Positions 49,604-58,320 of a stretch of DNA of 64,000 nucleotides are shown piece by piece; position 1 is the stretch's first letter, and every line of letters begins with the position of its first letter. This DNA comes from Candidatus Hydrogenedentota bacterium (GTDB lineage: Bacteria; Hydrogenedentota; Hydrogenedentia; Hydrogenedentales; JAEUWI01). A program made the translations under genes and the position numbers. The notes beneath the pieces were generated by a model. That model saw only the letters and a program-made list of their open reading frames with translations, was not told the origin of the DNA and ran no database searches. The stretch lies in assembly GCA_016791475.1 (NCBI GenBank), contig JAEUWI010000003.1, positions 62,001 to 126,000 on the forward strand. Direction: 5' to 3'.

Positions 49604-51235
49604 CTAGGGAGTATTGGATGCCTTCGAGGTGAATTCAGCGAGAACAACCGCCTGTACACCCCCAGCATCATAGTAAAAGACCTCGACACCGCGCAATGGC
49701 TCGTGAAAGACGAATACGGCGCTGTTCGATTGTTTCTCCACAACCTTGATCCGGTCTTCGCGATCTTCCTCACTAAATCCCGAACGGGCATCGAGGCTCC
49801 GAAGCTCCATGGCGCCCGGTGGACCTTCCGGCGCCGGGCCGAAAGAAAAGCGGTAGTCGCGCTGGTACATTCCCGTCGCGAAGAGCGCCTCGGCCACGGG
49901 AGTGTCGATGGGATGAGGACCGAAATGCTCCAGCGCCTCAGGCAGACCGGTCCGAAACACCAGGGCCCCCCCGAAGGTGTCGGGCTTATTCACGAGCAGA
50001 ATCCCGCCGCCTTTGTGTTGCTCCTGGATGCCCGCCACTATCACGCGCGCGATTGTGGCGGCTCCGCGCCAATACAGGACGCCGGAAACAAGCACGGCGG
50101 ATTGAAAGAGGACGATGGCGCAAAGCGATACCACCCGGGTGCGCCGGACGCACAGACGGGCCAAGCCAAGGCCGAGCCCCATGGCGGCAAAGACAGAGGC
50201 CAGATAGAGGTAACGCTCGCCTTCAATCTCACTCAGGTAGATTCGAACGTTGAAAACAGGAACAAGGGCCGCCAAGAAGGCCATTGCACAGAACACACCC
50301 GCGGTCGGACGACGCCAGCCGCGCCAGGCCAGCACAAGCAGAAGGGCGATAAAACACCCAAGCCACGCGATGGCCAGCGTGCCTTGCAGGGCGGGCATGG
50401 CGTCCAGCAAGCGGGCTGGGAGGGGCGGCAGCAATGCCCGCCACAGGAAATGGCCCAGCGACTGGGCTACAAGATCCGGCTGGGCCCGCAGGTGGCCGTG
50501 GGCGCCATAACCGCCGACAAGACTTCCCAACACCGCCCGGCGAAAAAAGAAGTAAAGGACCACGAGGAGAATGTGGGAGAGAAACGCCACGACCTGGGAC
50601 CGCGGCAAGGCGCTTGCCCTCGATCGGTGCCACATCAACATCAGACACAACATCAAGAGCAGGGGCGCCGAAAAGGCAGACTCCTTCGAGAGCAACGCCA
50701 GGCCCAGGCCGGTCACACTGAACACCCAGGCGCGGGAAAGGAAAGAAATCAACATGAGAAGAATGAAAAAGGCCCCCAGGAGGTCGCCCCGGCACGCAAT
50801 CCACGATACCGCCTCGGCATGACAGCCCAGCACGAGGAACAGGAGCCCCGCAGCCATCGGACCAAAGCGCGAGGCGCGCGCCTGGTCGCCCTGAACGACA
50901 AGTGCAAGTTTGATTACCAGCAGGCTGTTTGCGACGTGGAGCGCGATGTTGACGAAGTGGGCGGGAAGGGGGTTGAGCCCCCAGAGTTGATAATCCAGCC
51001 AGAAACTCAGCCCTGTAAGCGGGCGAAGGAAGCCCCCGCCTTCCGGCCCCGGCCAGAAGGGCAGCCCGCCCTCAATTACCCTGGCATAATGAAGAAAGTC
51101 GTCGCTTGCATACCAGGAAAACAGCGCCGGGGCGTAGAGAAGGCCTCCCACGGCCGAGTACACCGCCACCAACCCCGACCAGTCGCGAAGAGACAGTTCC
51201 GGCCCTTCTCCGTCTGGCTGTTCGGCGCCCGACAT
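49604..51235 (-). CDS. Polytopic GT-C-type membrane glycosyltransferase
   Basis: 543 residues from ATG 51235, 2 nt after the bshA stop; GTG 51259 is an alternative that would overlap bshA. Ten or more membrane helices are predicted. The N-terminal loop WYASDDFLHYAR carries an acidic pair in the position of the GT-C catalytic motif, and TGLSFWLDYQLWGLNPLPAHFVNIALHVANSLLV is characteristic of a bacterial family of TPR-less oligosaccharide or mannosyl-type transferases. A soluble C-terminal domain of about 150 residues follows. No role in thiol synthesis is expected; it may simply share the transcript. Confidence 0.7.
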   Translation of the reverse strand: MSGAEQPDGEGPELSLRDWSGLVAVYSAVGGLLYAPALFSWYASDDFLHYARVIEGGLPFWPGPEGGGFLRPLTGLSFWLDYQLWGLNPLPAHFVNIALHVANSLLVIKLALVVQGDQARASRFGPMAAGLLFLVLGCHAEAVSWIACRGDLLGAFFILLMLISFLSRAWVFSVTGLGLALLSKESAFSAPLLLMLCLMLMWHRSRASALPRSQVVAFLSHILLVVLYFFFRRAVLGSLVGGYGAHGHLRAQPDLVAQSLGHFLWRALLPPLPARLLDAMPALQGTLAIAWLGCFIALLLVLAWRGWRRPTAGVFCAMAFLAALVPVFNVRIYLSEIEGERYLYLASVFAAMGLGLGLARLCVRRTRVVSLCAIVLFQSAVLVSGVLYWRGAATIARVIVAGIQEQHKGGGILLVNKPDTFGGALVFRTGLPEALEHFGPHPIDTPVAEALFATGMYQRDYRFSFGPAPEGPPGAMELRSLDARSGFSEEDREDRIKVVEKQSNSAVFVFHEPLRGVEVFYYDAGGVQAVVLAEFTSKASNTP

Positions 51236-51237
51236 CG

Positions 51238-52389
51238 CTATGCCATCAGCGGAGCACACGTGCCCGCGCGACGCATGGCGATGACTTCCCGGTACACGTC
51301 CTCGTACTGGTTCACCGCATCATCCCGGCGAAATCCCGTCAAGGCCCGCTCCTGACCTTTGAGCCCCATGTCCCGCGCGAGAGCGTCATTGGTTAAGAGT
51401 TCGATCGCGCACTGGGCCATGTGTTCAATATCGCCCACTTCGCACAGGTAGCCCGATACGCCGTGCTCGATCACCTCGGTAATGCCTCCGCTCGCCGTTG
51501 CAATAACCGGCACCTTGCACGCCATAGCCTCCAGGGGAACCAATCCGAAGCTCTCGTGCTCGCTGGGCTGGATCACCAGATCCGCACAGGGGATAATCGT
51601 TTCCACGTTCTCGTAGTTGCCCAGATACTTTATCCGGTCCGAGATGCCGAGCTGTTTGGCCACACCCACCGCCGCCATGCGCTCCGGCCCTTCTCCGACC
51701 ATGACCAGCGTGGCGTCGACCTTTTCCAGCACCCGCTTGAACACACGCACCACGTCGGTGACGCGCTTCACGGGGCGGAAGTTGGATATGTGCATGATGA
51801 TCTTCGAGCCATCACAACCCAGCTCGCAGCGATTGGTCACGCTCCCGTTGAATTTCTCGTGGTCCAGAAAATTGTAGACCGTGCGCACGGGCCGTTCCAG
51901 CTTGAACTCCCGCATGGTTTCGTCGTTGAGCCACTGGGAAACCGCCGTGACCGCGCAGCTTCGCTCCATCGCGAATTTCGTCACACGAAAAAAGGACGGA
52001 TCGCTGCCCACCAGCGTGATGTCCGTACCGTGGAGCGTGGTTACAATGCCGAATCGCTTCTCTTCGGGAAGCATCTCGTTGGCAAAAATTGCCGCGGCCG
52101 CATTGGGAATCGCGTAGTGGGCGTGCCAGATATCGATGTCATATTCTTCCGCCACATCGGCGATTTTGGTGGCCAGCGCCAGGGAATAGGGCGGCGTACG
52201 GAACAGGGGATACGATACCGCGTCGACCACGTGAAAGAGGAGGTTGGAGCGGTACTCTTTGTGGCGAAAAGGCGGCTCGGACGTGACAAAGTGCACCGTA
52301 TGGCCGCGGTCGGCCAGCGCAAAGCCCAGTTCGGTCGCCATGATGCCGCTGCCGCCGGCGGAGGGATGGCATGTAATGCCGATTTTCAT
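51238..52389 (-). CDS. bshA: N-acetyl-alpha-D-glucosaminyl L-malate synthase
   Basis: 383 residues, GT4 retaining glycosyltransferase that joins GlcNAc from UDP-GlcNAc to L-malate, step 1 of bacillithiol synthesis. The start MKIGITCHPSAGGSGIMATE, the sugar-binding loop HGTDITLVGSDPSF, NFRPVKRV and the EX7E-type segment EHESFGLVPLEAMAC are the diagnostic BshA traits. The start ATG overlaps the bshB1 stop (ATGA at 52386-52389), which shows translational coupling. Adjacent bshB1 and bshC remove the ambiguity of a lone GT4 gene. Confidence 0.95.
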   Translation of the reverse strand: MKIGITCHPSAGGSGIMATELGFALADRGHTVHFVTSEPPFRHKEYRSNLLFHVVDAVSYPLFRTPPYSLALATKIADVAEEYDIDIWHAHYAIPNAAAAIFANEMLPEEKRFGIVTTLHGTDITLVGSDPSFFRVTKFAMERSCAVTAVSQWLNDETMREFKLERPVRTVYNFLDHEKFNGSVTNRCELGCDGSKIIMHISNFRPVKRVTDVVRVFKRVLEKVDATLVMVGEGPERMAAVGVAKQLGISDRIKYLGNYENVETIIPCADLVIQPSEHESFGLVPLEAMACKVPVIATASGGITEVIEHGVSGYLCEVGDIEHMAQCAIELLTNDALARDMGLKGQERALTGFRRDDAVNQYEDVYREVIAMRRAGTCAPLMA

Positions 52390-53102
52390 GTGTGCTTCTC
52401 CAGTTCCGGCGGCAGGTCCATGGCCACCGGTAGTGTGCCATAGAGCGGCTCGCCGTAGCGAACGCCGATGCGGGCCCCCCAGTATTCGGCTCGGGTCGTA
52501 ATACCCTCCCAGAATGCGGACGAGGCGATCAGGGTCTCGGGCCCGGTATAGTCGGGGTTGTAAAATTGGGATCGGAAAGCGCGCAGCGCAGTCAGCTTAT
52601 GCTCAAAGACGGCGGAAATATCAACCACGTGCGTCGGGGATTCTTCGTCTGATTCGTACGCGCGATAATAGTAAACTGTGCCCGCGCGATGAGGGGCTTG
52701 TCCCGTATCCACGCCATGGACACCGGCAAAAAAGTTGGCGTCCCGCACCAGCGAATGGGCCGCGCTATGATCCGGATGGCGATCGGGCGCCATCGGGGCC
52801 AACAGCAAGGCCGGTTTCAATTCACGCAGTATACGTATCAATACGAGACGCTGCTCCGGCGTATTCATGATGCCACCGTCTGGAAGTCCCGCATTGCGCC
52901 GCCCCAGAATGCCCAGCAGTCTCGCGGACTCCAGGGCCTCGACTTTACGCTCGGCCGCGGTGCCCCGTGAACCCAGCTCGCCTTTGGTCAGATCGAGCAC
53001 CACCGCGGACTTCCCAGCCCGGCCGAGCTTGCACAGCAGGCCGCCCACGCCCAGGTCGGCGTCGTCCGGGTGAGCGCCTATCGCCAACACGTCTATACTC
53101 AC
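52386..53102 (-). CDS. bshB1: Bacillithiol biosynthesis deacetylase BshB1
   Basis: 238 residues of the LmbE/PIG-L zinc-dependent deacetylase family. The metal ligands are in IGAHPDDADLG (His11, Asp14) and in the downstream HPDHSAAH. It deacetylates GlcNAc-malate to glucosaminyl-malate. GTG start overlaps the bshC stop by 4 bases (GTGA, 53099-53102). Position between bshA and bshC makes the assignment firm; without that context an LmbE-family enzyme could serve mycothiol or antibiotic pathways. Confidence 0.93.
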   Translation of the reverse strand: MSIDVLAIGAHPDDADLGVGGLLCKLGRAGKSAVVLDLTKGELGSRGTAAERKVEALESARLLGILGRRNAGLPDGGIMNTPEQRLVLIRILRELKPALLLAPMAPDRHPDHSAAHSLVRDANFFAGVHGVDTGQAPHRAGTVYYYRAYESDEESPTHVVDISAVFEHKLTALRAFRSQFYNPDYTGPETLIASSAFWEGITTRAEYWGARIGVRYGEPLYGTLPVAMDLPPELEKHT

Positions 53103-54658
53103 AACTCCACCTCCTGCAGGGAAAAATCATTATGATCCAGGGTGGCGGTCAATCTCGGCACGAGTTCCCAACCATACTGAAACAGCCAGGAGAAGATCGT
53201 ATAGTGCCGTTCCTGGGGCTTGCGTCCGGGGGCCAGTTCCGTACCCAGGCGCGCGAGCTGGCTGCGCACGGTGGCGGTGCGGCCTTCATCGGCCCGGAGC
53301 AGCGAGCGCTCCAGATAGTCCAGACCCTGGCGTACCTGCGCCTGAAATTGCCTGCCGAGCGGCAGCGCCTGTCGGCCCGCCTTGCCGAGCGCGTCGAAGT
53401 CCCGCTCCATCCCTTCGAGCTCACGGATGATGGCATCCGCGCGGCCGGTCAATACGGCCAACGACGGATCCTGTGCGGCGCTGCGCAGTGCACGCTCTTC
53501 CAATGATTCCGCTGGGGCGTAAAGATCCCCAATCCGCAATTTGTACTTCTCCAGAAGCTTGTTGGATTTCAGGCTGGTGAGGGCCGCGCGCATGCGTGGA
53601 TAAACGATCGGCATCGGACGTTCGAAGAACTCGAAGACTTCCTTTAGCTGGCCCCAATAGGCCACTTCGCCGGGACCGGCCACATAGGAACGCACTGGAA
53701 ACAAGGTCTGTTGCACGATACAACGAAGCCCCACATTGGCCGTGAACACTCCCGGCTCCCGATGGAGCAATTCGAGCAATTCCGCCTCGCTGAATCGCTC
53801 ACCCGTATCCGGAAGTATGAAAAGACCTTCCCCATGGCGAACTCTACAGCGCACGCCCGCGCGTTCGAGGAAGAAATTGCAGGTATCGTCACCCTTCACG
53901 ACCTGAGCGCCATAGCCCGCGGATTCCAGGCGCGCGCCGCCTTCGTTCAGGAGCCGCGTGCTCGCCAGCGGATGGCGTATTTCGCGCTCAAAGACCGGAA
54001 TGGCAAGCTCGCGGGCTTCGGGGAGTTCGGGCGTGAAGATGACCAGGGGCGTGTCGCGAAAAAGACGCGCCATGAGCCGGGCATGCCATTCCGAGAGATT
54101 TGCCGAGGCCTGAAGGCTCTCGTGGAGAAAACCCAGGATTTCGCCGGAAAATTCCGAACCCGGAGCCTGGGCCGCGGCCAACTCGGCCAGATCATGCAGT
54201 TCATCGCGCACGGGCAGCCGGTAGATGGAGCTCGCCACTTGTCCAGGCGCGGGCAACAGGGCTAAGGAAACATCCACATGGTTCCTGCTCAGCAGGTGGG
54301 CTTCACGAATCTCATCAAAATCATGATCATCGCCGCCGACCCAATATATGGGAAGGAATGCGTGGCCCGACGTTTCCGAGGCGGCTTGAGCGAGCTTTAT
54401 CGCGGTGATGGCCTTGTAAATCGTGTACAGGGGACCGGTAAAAATGCCCGGCTGTTGCCCGGTGATAAACACCCCCTCGTCACCGCGCAGCGTGCCGTTG
54501 CTTCCGATGTGAGCCTGGTAGCGCCGGATCCCGTCCACGAGCGAAGCGTTCCAGGGGGCGGGGGAGAGGTCCGCACCCGTCACGCCACGGGGTACACCCG
54601 CGTAGAACTTCATGAGCTCCGGATGGCCCGCCAGGTAATCCTCGATCAGGGAAGCCAT
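53099..54658 (-). CDS. bshC: Bacillithiol biosynthesis cysteine-adding enzyme BshC
   Basis: 519 residues, near the usual 540 of the family. The nucleotide-binding segment TGQQPGIFTGPLYTIYKA (from residue 66) and the Rossmann-type PIYWVGGDDHDFDEI motif are diagnostic. BshC ligates cysteine to glucosaminyl-malate and completes bacillithiol. ATG lies 2 nt after the stop of the upstream methyltransferase gene and the end overlaps bshB1, so the four genes are one translational unit. Confidence 0.95.
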   Translation of the reverse strand: MASLIEDYLAGHPELMKFYAGVPRGVTGADLSPAPWNASLVDGIRRYQAHIGSNGTLRGDEGVFITGQQPGIFTGPLYTIYKAITAIKLAQAASETSGHAFLPIYWVGGDDHDFDEIREAHLLSRNHVDVSLALLPAPGQVASSIYRLPVRDELHDLAELAAAQAPGSEFSGEILGFLHESLQASANLSEWHARLMARLFRDTPLVIFTPELPEARELAIPVFEREIRHPLASTRLLNEGGARLESAGYGAQVVKGDDTCNFFLERAGVRCRVRHGEGLFILPDTGERFSEAELLELLHREPGVFTANVGLRCIVQQTLFPVRSYVAGPGEVAYWGQLKEVFEFFERPMPIVYPRMRAALTSLKSNKLLEKYKLRIGDLYAPAESLEERALRSAAQDPSLAVLTGRADAIIRELEGMERDFDALGKAGRQALPLGRQFQAQVRQGLDYLERSLLRADEGRTATVRSQLARLGTELAPGRKPQERHYTIFSWLFQYGWELVPRLTATLDHNDFSLQEVEL

Positions 54659-54660
54659 GG

Positions 54661-55431
54661 TTAGAGCCGCGTTCCGACGACGATCTGTCGCGGTGTGTCT
54701 TCCCGCACGGGATCACCGTCGTAGTTGCCATAGCATGACTCCATGCGAAGGCCCGCACGCTCCAGCAAGGCCAGCAACTCTGAGCGTTCATAGAGGCGTA
54801 CCGACTCTGAGCTACGGTTAATGATGGCGCCGTCACGTTCGACCTCGGTGATTTTGTTCACGCGCCTGGTGGTCTCGTCAATCCAGCGGCGTTCACGAAT
54901 CTCAAATCTCCCTGAAACGCGAAGAGATTCCGGATCCAGGTGAGCCCGCAAGTAGGCGGGGTTCAAGTAGTCCACAAAGAAGCGGCCACCCGGCTTGAGC
55001 GCCCGGGCAATGCCCTGGGCCACGGCGAGATTCTCAGACTCGCTGCAGAAATATCCGAAGCTAGTGAAGAAATTGGCCAGCGCATCGAAAGCGCCCCTGA
55101 AGGGAATGGCCCGCATATCGCCACGCAGCAAATGGCCGGTCGTACCCAATTGCTTCCGCGCAATCTCCAGCAGGTCGGGGGAGTAGTCGAGCCCGACCAC
55201 GTGGGGCGTATGCTTAAGCAGGTGGACCATGTGTCGACCGTTTCCGCAACACAAATCCAGCACGGAACAGGACTTGCAGAGGCGAAGCTGCTCGATCGCA
55301 AAGGCGGATTCCGCCGTGGCGGCCTCCACGGTCCGGTGGGCGTAGACAACCGGATACAGGGCGTCAAAGGCATGGGCAAACCAGTCCTTTTCCACCGTGC
55401 GCTCGGTCGACTTCGTGTTCAATACAACCAT
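54661..55431 (-). CDS. Class I SAM-dependent methyltransferase, candidate bacillithiol N-methyltransferase
   Basis: 256 residues from ATG 55431; a TTG at 55506 would extend it by 25 unconserved residues over a stem-loop. The SAM-binding motif I is VLDLCCGNGRH (about 57-67), with GLDYSPDLLEIARKQL and GDMRAIPF following, and ARALKPGGRFFVDYL as the post-strand motif. The gene is 2 nt upstream of bshC. In green sulfur bacteria a class I methyltransferase, NmbA, forms N-methyl-bacillithiol; this protein is a positional candidate for that step. The similarity to NmbA was not checked. Other small-molecule substrates remain possible. Confidence 0.75.
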   Translation of the reverse strand: MVVLNTKSTERTVEKDWFAHAFDALYPVVYAHRTVEAATAESAFAIEQLRLCKSCSVLDLCCGNGRHMVHLLKHTPHVVGLDYSPDLLEIARKQLGTTGHLLRGDMRAIPFRGAFDALANFFTSFGYFCSESENLAVAQGIARALKPGGRFFVDYLNPAYLRAHLDPESLRVSGRFEIRERRWIDETTRRVNKITEVERDGAIINRSSESVRLYERSELLALLERAGLRMESCYGNYDGDPVREDTPRQIVVGTRL

Positions 55432-55522: not shown

Positions 55523-57007
55523 TTAAATATCGTCCCCGGAATCGCCCACCGTGTGGAGCTTCAACATATTGGTCCGCCCGCCCTCCGCCAGAGGGGTGCC
55601 GGCAACAATAATGATCGTGTCGCCCTCCGCAGCCGCCTTGTGTCGAAGCAATTGCTCTTCCACTTCATGCACCATGACTTCGATAAGATCGAAATCCTTG
55701 GTCAGTACGGCGGAAACGCCCCACATGATGGCGCACTTGCGGCAGGTAGACTCACGATTGGTGATCGCCGTAATGCGAACACGAGGGCGATAACGGGCGA
55801 TGGCGCCGGCCGTGTATCCGGTCTTGGTGAAGCAGACAATCCGGGTGATATCCAGGCTCTCGCACATGCGAAAGACCGCCTGGCCGATAGCGTCGGCATA
55901 GGAGTTCAGGTGAACGCCACGCATGCCCTCGCGCCGCTTCTTCAGTTCGTCCCGGCGCAATTCGCGCATGCGTCGGTCCGTCGAGGTCCGCTGTGTCTCC
56001 GCATCGGTTTTCGCGGCCACGCGGGCCATCACGGTGCAGGCCTCCACGGGATACTTGCCCGATGCCGTCTCCGCGGAGAGCATGACCGCGTCCGTGCCGT
56101 CATAGATGGCATTGGCCACATCGGTAACTTCGGCCCGGGTGGGTCTCCCGGCATAGACCATGGACTCAAGCATCTGCGTCGCCGTAATAACCGGCACGCC
56201 GAGCTCGTTGCAGGAGTTGATTAGCGTCTTCTGGATACTGGGGACGTCTTCAAAGTTCACTTCGACACCCAGATCACCCCGGGCGACCATGACGGCATCG
56301 CTGAGTGCGGCAATCTCTTTGATATGGACCAGCGCTTCCGGGCGCTCGATTTTTGCGACGATCCCGATATCGGAATTGGATTCCCGGAGGAGCTCCCGCA
56401 GCCCTCGGATATCGTCGGGTGAGCGGACGAAGGAAAGGGCGACAAAATCTACCTTTTCGGCGATACTGAGGGCTACGTCGATGCGATCTTTGTCCGTCAG
56501 GGAGGGTTCGGCAATGGACACGCCCGGAAGATTGATTCCCTTGCTCTCGCCCAGTTCTCCGCCGCGCACCACCGTGCAATGGACTTCGGGAGGAGCGACG
56601 CTCTCCACGCAAAGTTCCAGGGTGCCGTCGGAAAGCAGAATGCGGTCTCCCGGTTTGACGTCGTGGGGGAGATTGGCGTAGGTCGTGGAGATGCGATTCA
56701 CATCGCCGACGATCTTATCGGTGGTAACCGTGATGCTGGCGCCGGGCTCCAGATTGACCACGTGGGGAGGGATGAGCTTCCCGGTCCGTATTTTCGGCCC
56801 CTGCAGATCCATAAGAATCGCCACATTGGCATTTTTTCGCGCGGACACTTCGCGGATGATTTTGATCCGCTCCTTGTGCGATTCGTGGCTGCCGTGGGAG
56901 AAATTGAGGCGGGCCACGTCCATGCCCGCATCAATCAGCCTCTCGATCATTTCGGGACTACACGACGCGGGCCCGATGGTACACACTATTTTGGTTTGAC
57001 GGCGCAT
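55523..57007 (-). CDS. pyk: Pyruvate kinase
   Basis: 494 residues. KIVCTIGPASCSPEMIERLIDAGMDVARLNFSHG is the start of the A domain, MDLQGPKIRTG follows, the catalytic lysine is in VAKIERPEAL and the signature MVARGDLGVEV follows. The C domain runs to the end (EGDTIIIVAGTPLAEGG). It converts PEP and ADP to pyruvate and ATP. ATG starts 2 nt after the lysC stop, so the genes are coupled. The neighbouring enzyme I and HPr genes also use the PEP pool. Confidence 0.97.
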   Translation of the reverse strand: MRRQTKIVCTIGPASCSPEMIERLIDAGMDVARLNFSHGSHESHKERIKIIREVSARKNANVAILMDLQGPKIRTGKLIPPHVVNLEPGASITVTTDKIVGDVNRISTTYANLPHDVKPGDRILLSDGTLELCVESVAPPEVHCTVVRGGELGESKGINLPGVSIAEPSLTDKDRIDVALSIAEKVDFVALSFVRSPDDIRGLRELLRESNSDIGIVAKIERPEALVHIKEIAALSDAVMVARGDLGVEVNFEDVPSIQKTLINSCNELGVPVITATQMLESMVYAGRPTRAEVTDVANAIYDGTDAVMLSAETASGKYPVEACTVMARVAAKTDAETQRTSTDRRMRELRRDELKKRREGMRGVHLNSYADAIGQAVFRMCESLDITRIVCFTKTGYTAGAIARYRPRVRITAITNRESTCRKCAIMWGVSAVLTKDFDLIEVMVHEVEEQLLRHKAAAEGDTIIIVAGTPLAEGGRTNMLKLHTVGDSGDDI

Positions 57008-57009
57008 GG

Positions 57010-58320
57010 TTATTCCCAGGACTCGAAGGCGCGATAAATTGCGGTTACCGCCCGCTCCAGAGACTCTTCCTCTACCCCGACGATAATGTTCATCTCCGAC
57101 GATCCCTGATCGATAACGCGAACATTCACGTTAGCCTCCGCCAGAGCCGTAAATAGACGTGCGGCCACCCCGATATGATGGTTCATTCCCAGACCCACCG
57201 TGGCGACCATAGCCAGACCCGACACCAGCCCTATGCTATCGGGTTGGCAGCGCCGTTGCAAGTCGTCGACCAGCTTATCGCCCAGACCGCCAATTTCTTC
57301 GTCCCGGAGAATGATGGACATGGTGTCGATGCCGGTGGGCATGTGTTCCCAACCAATGCCGTGCTCTTCAAGCACGGTAAGCGCCCTTCGGCCGAAACCC
57401 CGCTCGCGGTTCATCAGCGTCTTCTCAATATTGATCATGCTGAAGCCCCGGCGTCCTGCGATACCGCAGAGGGGGTGCTTGCTTTCCCGGCTGGCTACAA
57501 TCAGGGTGCCGGGGTTTTCGGGTTCCCGGGTGCTTCGTATCTGAATCGGGATTCCAGGTTCGCGCACGGGATAAATCGCTTCGTCGTGCAGTACCGTGGC
57601 GCCCATGTACGACAATTCGCGCAGTTCCTGATAGGTGACCTCGTCGATGCGGCGCGGCTTGTCCACAATGCGCGGATCGGCCATGAGGAAGCCAGGCACG
57701 TCGGTCCAGTTCTCGTAGAGATCCGAGCCCGTTGCGCGCGCCACGATAGACCCCGTAACGTCGCTGCCCCCTCGTGAAAAAGTCTTGATGCGACCATCGG
57801 GCATGGCGCCATAAAAACCGGGCACTACATACAGACCGTCGCCCGAGAGCCGCTCACCGAGCAATCCGTAGGTCGCGGAATCGAAGTCGCCGCTGTTGGT
57901 GAAGCGGATACATTCTGCGGGGTCCACAAATTCAGCCCCAAGCAGGGCCGCAACCAGGCGACCGTTAAGGTATTCGCCGCGGGAAGCCATGAAGTCGGGC
58001 GTCGATTCGCGGGGAGCCCGGGCCTCAATCTCGTCGAGCAGCGCGGCTAAATCGATGCCGACATTAAGCTCCCGGGCCAGTTCTTCAAAGCGCTGCCGGA
58101 TGATACGTTTTGGCTCGGACGGGTCCAGCCCCTGGGCGGCAATACCGTGCCAGGCATAGAGGAGGTCCGTGACCTTCTTGTCGGAGTCAAAACGCTTTCC
58201 GGGGGCCGAAGGAACCACGAAACGGCGGGCGGGGTCGGCCTTGACGATGGATTCCATGATACGAATGTTGGTAGCGTCGGCCAGCGAGGTGCCGCCAAAT
58301 TTGCAGGTGATTTTCTTCAA
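57010..58320 (-). CDS. lysC: Aspartate kinase
   Basis: 436 residues. CKFGGTSLAD at the start and the FSRGGSDVTGSIVARA segment are typical of aspartokinases; two ACT domains follow (about 300-436, with INIEKTLMNRERGFGRRALTVLEE and the final NVNVRVIDQGSSEMNIIVGVE). It starts the lysine, threonine, methionine and diaminopimelate pathway. A leader of about 109 bp separates it from rseP and contains a stem-loop. No lysine riboswitch can be recognised. Confidence 0.95.
   Translation of the reverse strand: MKKITCKFGGTSLADATNIRIMESIVKADPARRFVVPSAPGKRFDSDKKVTDLLYAWHGIAAQGLDPSEPKRIIRQRFEELARELNVGIDLAALLDEIEARAPRESTPDFMASRGEYLNGRLVAALLGAEFVDPAECIRFTNSGDFDSATYGLLGERLSGDGLYVVPGFYGAMPDGRIKTFSRGGSDVTGSIVARATGSDLYENWTDVPGFLMADPRIVDKPRRIDEVTYQELRELSYMGATVLHDEAIYPVREPGIPIQIRSTREPENPGTLIVASRESKHPLCGIAGRRGFSMINIEKTLMNRERGFGRRALTVLEEHGIGWEHMPTGIDTMSIILRDEEIGGLGDKLVDDLQRRCQPDSIGLVSGLAMVATVGLGMNHHIGVAARLFTALAEANVNVRVIDQGSSEMNIIVGVEEESLERAVTAIYRAFESWE

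Follow-up and report, generated by a model that had tools for sequence, protein, structure and literature searches.

Four adjacent genes in a 64,000-nucleotide stretch of DNA from Candidatus Hydrogenedentota bacterium (the window) very probably form an operon for the biosynthesis of N-methyl-bacillithiol in this organism. Open reading frame calls place the genes on the minus strand in the order class I SAM methyltransferase (MT), bshC, bshB1 and bshA. In the proposed pathway, BshA would join GlcNAc and malate into GlcNAc-malate, BshB1 would remove the acetyl group from this intermediate and BshC would add cysteine to yield bacillithiol (BSH), a sulfur compound with a protective role. The product of the first gene of the cluster, a predicted orthologue of the methyltransferase NmbA, would then carry out SAM-dependent N-methylation of the cysteine amine of bacillithiol. 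We base the three Bsh steps on equivalog-level family assignment. For the methylation step the evidence is similarity to a biochemically characterized enzyme, signature residues common to both proteins and the repeated linkage of the genes.

The coordinates of these genes (Table 1) agree exactly with the first-pass annotation of this DNA, which had described an MT gene 2 nt upstream of bshC and contiguous bsh genes with 4-nt overlaps, both between bshC and bshB1 and between bshB1 and bshA. That annotation had also considered the three Bsh steps recognizable by family. All three proteins scored over the cut-offs of their NCBIfam equivalog models, with 364.9 bits for BshC (TIGR03998, cut-off 265.8), 233.4 bits for BshB1 (TIGR04001, cut-off 182.5) and 490.9 bits for BshA (TIGR03999, cut-off 273.7). 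The pyruvate kinase gene lies on the same strand 91 nt upstream of nmbA, and the aspartokinase-like gene is 2 nt upstream of pyruvate kinase. The gene spacing suggests that nmbA-bshCBA is transcribed as one unit, to which pyruvate kinase may also belong. Scans of the region for promoters and terminators were uninformative. The gene for the 551-aa probable membrane protein is possibly co-transcribed with bshA. This protein has no Pfam or NCBIfam match, and its homologues were found only at loci of the same genus (L074 and L076/L003).

Table 1. Coordinates of the predicted nmbA-bshCBA operon and neighboring genes in the window.
Feature	Coordinates	Strand	Remarks
nmbA-like class I SAM-dependent MT, predicted bacillithiol N-methyltransferase	54661..55431	-	256 aa; ATG at 55431; best PDB relative 9RI2
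bshC, cysteine-adding enzyme	53099..54658	-	519 aa; TIGR03998; PF10079 and PF24850
bshB1, GlcNAc-malate deacetylase	52386..53102	-	238 aa; TIGR04001; PF02585
bshA, GlcNAc-malate synthase (GT4)	51238..52389	-	383 aa; TIGR03999
Pyruvate kinase, context gene outside the pathway	55523..57007	-	TIGR01064, 535 bits
Aspartokinase-like gene, conserved context	57010..58320	-	Named from reading of the sequence alone
Probable membrane protein	49604..51259	-	551 aa; overlaps the 3' end of bshA

The window MT matches the Pfam family PF13649 (E 1e-17), and no curated NCBIfam model reaches its cut-off with this protein. The first-pass annotation had proposed that the MT coupled to the bsh genes performs the step of NmbA or an analogous one and had named a search against NmbA, a tree and synteny with bshC as ways to check this. 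Using phmmer on PDB sequences, we found that its nearest characterized relative is NmbA itself, the enzyme from Chlorobaculum tepidum (CtNmbA, 9RI2; E 5.4e-36), followed by DesVI (E 1e-16). The match to 9RI2 covers residues 40-276 of the 281-aa MT open reading frame. In this comparison, 85 of 235 aligned residues are identical (36%), and the proteins are 256 aa (window MT) and 266 aa (CtNmbA) long. The main text of PMC12719100 defines an NmbA orthologue by E < 1e-20, similar length, coverage > 80% and identity > 25% to CtNmbA. The window MT falls within this definition, with an E value from phmmer on PDB sequences where the paper used RefSeq BLAST, and it co-occurs with complete bshA, bshB and bshC genes that are all adjacent and over equivalog cut-offs. 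Motif I is intact (VLDLCCGNGRH), and Y127 and F128 align with Y134 and F135 of CtNmbA, an aromatic pair near the SAM adenine.

The fold does not discriminate NmbA from other enzymes, since the AlphaFold2 model of the window MT (pLDDT 87.9) matches many small-molecule methyltransferases in Foldseek and 9RI2 ranks only eighth, behind CypM, 3D2L, 1WZN and YunM, among others. According to the main text of PMC12719100, NmbA has a narrow, basket-like cap domain with an unusual strand order, and this cap is mispredicted by AlphaFold.

Overall similarity alone is also not decisive because the scores against CtNmbA of Hydrogenedentota paralogues that are not linked to bsh genes (81-124 bits) come close to those of the linked MTs (mean 125 bits; window MT 133 bits). 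We therefore dropped similarity to CtNmbA as the sole evidence. The unlinked relatives are either stand-alone or, as judged from sequence, fused to an ATP-grasp-like domain. Paralogues of approximately 650 aa (L132, L133, L135, L136, L137, L141 and L142) combine a class I SAM MT with an apparent D-Ala-D-Ala-ligase-type ATP-grasp domain.

A 46-row tree, in which the bootstrap had not settled, separated the unlinked paralogues with 98/96 support from all linked MTs, which fell on one side together with CtNmbA, a Paenibacillus MT and a flavobacterial MT. With a root among the paralogues, NmbA and the linked MTs are thus monophyletic at 98/96. The exclusion of CtNmbA from the paralogues did not hold as firmly; forcing it among them cost only 1.6 log units and was not rejected (AU p 0.42). 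A tree that included partial DesVI and CypM was set aside for its extreme branch lengths. A match on a Paenibacillus polymyxa plasmid (L246) was rejected as an NmbA because its gene context is an acyl-carrier-protein cluster and the tree places it among the paralogues.

Independently of the tree, we defined nine signature columns from linked versus unlinked MTs only, leaving CtNmbA out. CtNmbA matched eight of the nine residues, the Paenibacillus MT nine and the flavobacterial MT seven; DesVI matched five, CypM two and the unlinked paralogues zero to five. The window MT carries the NmbA-side residues Y30, H32, R33, K193, E209 and V211. CtNmbA and 59/59 linked sequences of the alignment all have K198 and E214 (CtNmbA numbering), which the unlinked Hydrogenedentota paralogues lack. 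In window numbering, K193 and E209 show no variation across the 59 linked sequences.

The MT could belong to bacillithiol metabolism and act on a different acceptor, such as the thiol sulfur, a conjugate of BSH, the malate carboxylates or the GlcN-malate on which BshC has yet to act, given that linkage ties it to the pathway and not to an acceptor atom, and that CypM/DesVI-type N-methyltransferases and some C-methyltransferases share the fold. However, the closest characterized relative, CtNmbA, N-methylates bacillithiol at the cysteine amine in vitro (PMC12719100, main text), genetic evidence indicates that NmbA is needed for N-methyl-bacillithiol in vivo (PMC6282198), and the window MT and CtNmbA have group-specific residues in common. 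We consider a different acceptor unlikely. Based on similarity, signature residues and linkage to bshC, which together support the proposal that the coupled MT is NmbA-type, we call the window MT an NmbA orthologue with a predicted role in N-methylation of bacillithiol.

We examined the linkage in 68 genomes of the uncultured phylum Hydrogenedentota, with a threshold of E < 1e-40 for nmbA orthologues. An nmbA orthologue was found in 57/68 genomes and BshC in 58/68; 56 genomes had both, nine had neither and three had one. In each of the three, G066 (nmbA only) and G025 and G048 (bshC only), the gene that is present lies at a contig end. Fisher's test gave p 1e-8 for co-occurrence, a value that is only indicative because related genomes are not independent. 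The nmbA gene is directly before bshC in 53 of the 56 genomes with both, nearly always within approximately 20 nt, and the two genes are on different contigs in G016 and G017, which are from one genus, and in G060. The widespread order is RseP-like, aspartokinase-like, (pyruvate kinase), nmbA, bshC, bshB and bshA, with bshA elsewhere in some families. An aspartokinase-like homologue is beside 42 of the 53 nmbA-bshC loci and a pyruvate kinase homologue beside 26. The recurrence of the four-gene arrangement across the phylum indicates that it is not due to chance.

A 657-aa open reading frame in G049 (L113, 5962-7917) fuses NmbA to BshC. We rejected it as evidence of a functional fusion. With approximately 14 NmbA residues and 103 BshC residues missing at the junction, its origin seems to be either a deletion or an error in assembly. 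A record titled Nitrospiraceae (L005, JAACEL010000174.1) has the cassette of Hydrogenedentota G045:C346 and is probably a mislabelled MAG.

The arrangement also occurs in Planctomycetota, where the gene order of the window, nmbA-bshC-bshB-bshA, is repeated in a Phycisphaera record (L011). In 392 sampled genomes of this phylum, using an MT threshold of 1e-30 and scoring up to six MT candidates per genome, the matches listed included an MT in 146 genomes, BshC in 157 and both in 119, where the MT counts may include paralogues. Because of these two limits on the MT counts, the firm figure is the 59/392 genomes in which nmbA and bshC are adjacent. Of the 31 adjacent loci that we read, nearly all continue with bshB and bshA. 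Synteny with bshC, a further check proposed in the first-pass annotation, is thus recurrent in both phyla.

A generic class I MT with an unrelated substrate might be beside bshC by coincidence or shared regulation, and the same genomes do contain similar-scoring paralogues with no bsh linkage. This is very improbable, since the two genes are adjacent in 53 of the 56 Hydrogenedentota genomes that have both, their order recurs in a second phylum and MT and pathway are absent together from nine genomes. It is barely credible that the lineage makes plain BSH by ordinary synthesis with an MT that has drifted to inactivity, given the intact SAM-binding motif, the aromatic Y127/F128 pair and the invariant K193 and E209. 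Linkage to bsh genes marks NmbA off from look-alike methyltransferases more strongly than similarity alone does.

The genome of the window also encodes candidate redox partners. These are a bacilliredoxin (TIGR04191, 172 bits, over the cut-off) and a YpdA-like protein that, at 338.6 bits, is 1.3 bits under the TIGR04018 cut-off of 339.9. Such proteins are what a BSH-type redox system would be expected to have, and their presence is supporting evidence, with an imperfect fit. In four families (f2, f3, f4 and f6), 23 nmbA-positive genomes have no YpdA match. G001-G021 and G028-G030 of these families have nmbA-bshC but no YpdA and, for the most part, no bacilliredoxin. The bsh-less genomes G027, G032, G033 and G038 have YpdA. 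Tentatively, and with more doubt than confidence, we suggest that nmbA-bshC-bshB-bshA is an old unit of Hydrogenedentota and Planctomycetota, so that N-methyl-bacillithiol might be the usual thiol of Hydrogenedentota and common in Planctomycetota. Those Hydrogenedentota families that have the operon and no recognizable YpdA, and mostly no bacilliredoxin, would then need a different reductase for the oxidized thiol.

The N-methyl-bacillithiol pathway and the NmbA enzyme are known, the pathway from green sulfur bacteria. We found no report of the pathway in Hydrogenedentota or of the nmbA-bshCBA operon arrangement, and our literature search returned no work linking Hydrogenedentota with bacillithiol. 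In a 2018 study, Planctomycetes were among the lineages for which no low-molecular-weight thiol had been documented or predicted (PMC6282198). A 2025 survey was limited to validly published phyla, and its main text, supplements aside, has no mention of Planctomycetota, Hydrogenedentota or an operon (PMC12719100). With the recurrent nmbA-bshCBA operon, the thiol of Hydrogenedentota and of many Planctomycetota can be predicted directly and in a testable way, and the operon is a compact cassette for expressing all four steps in a laboratory host.

Bacillithiol synthesis in Bacilli uses the same three enzymes, BshA, BshB1 and BshC, from the same families. However, in Bacilli bshC is apart from bshA-bshB1 and the BSH of B. 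subtilis is unmethylated, whereas the window has a bshCBA cluster with nmbA. In Paenibacillus, where PpNmbA has been assayed (PMC12719100, main text), the P. cellulosilyticus homologue L245, which is not PpNmbA itself, has nine of nine signature residues and is on the NmbA side of the tree; unlike in the window, no bshC lies within 6 kb of its gene. C. tepidum has all four enzymes, an MT that is 36% identical over 235 residues to that of the window, shared signature residues and the same predicted product. By contrast, its genes are scattered (CT0548, CT1419, CT1558 and CT1040, the last being nmbA; PMC12719100, main text), whereas those in the window are in one cluster with nmbA first.
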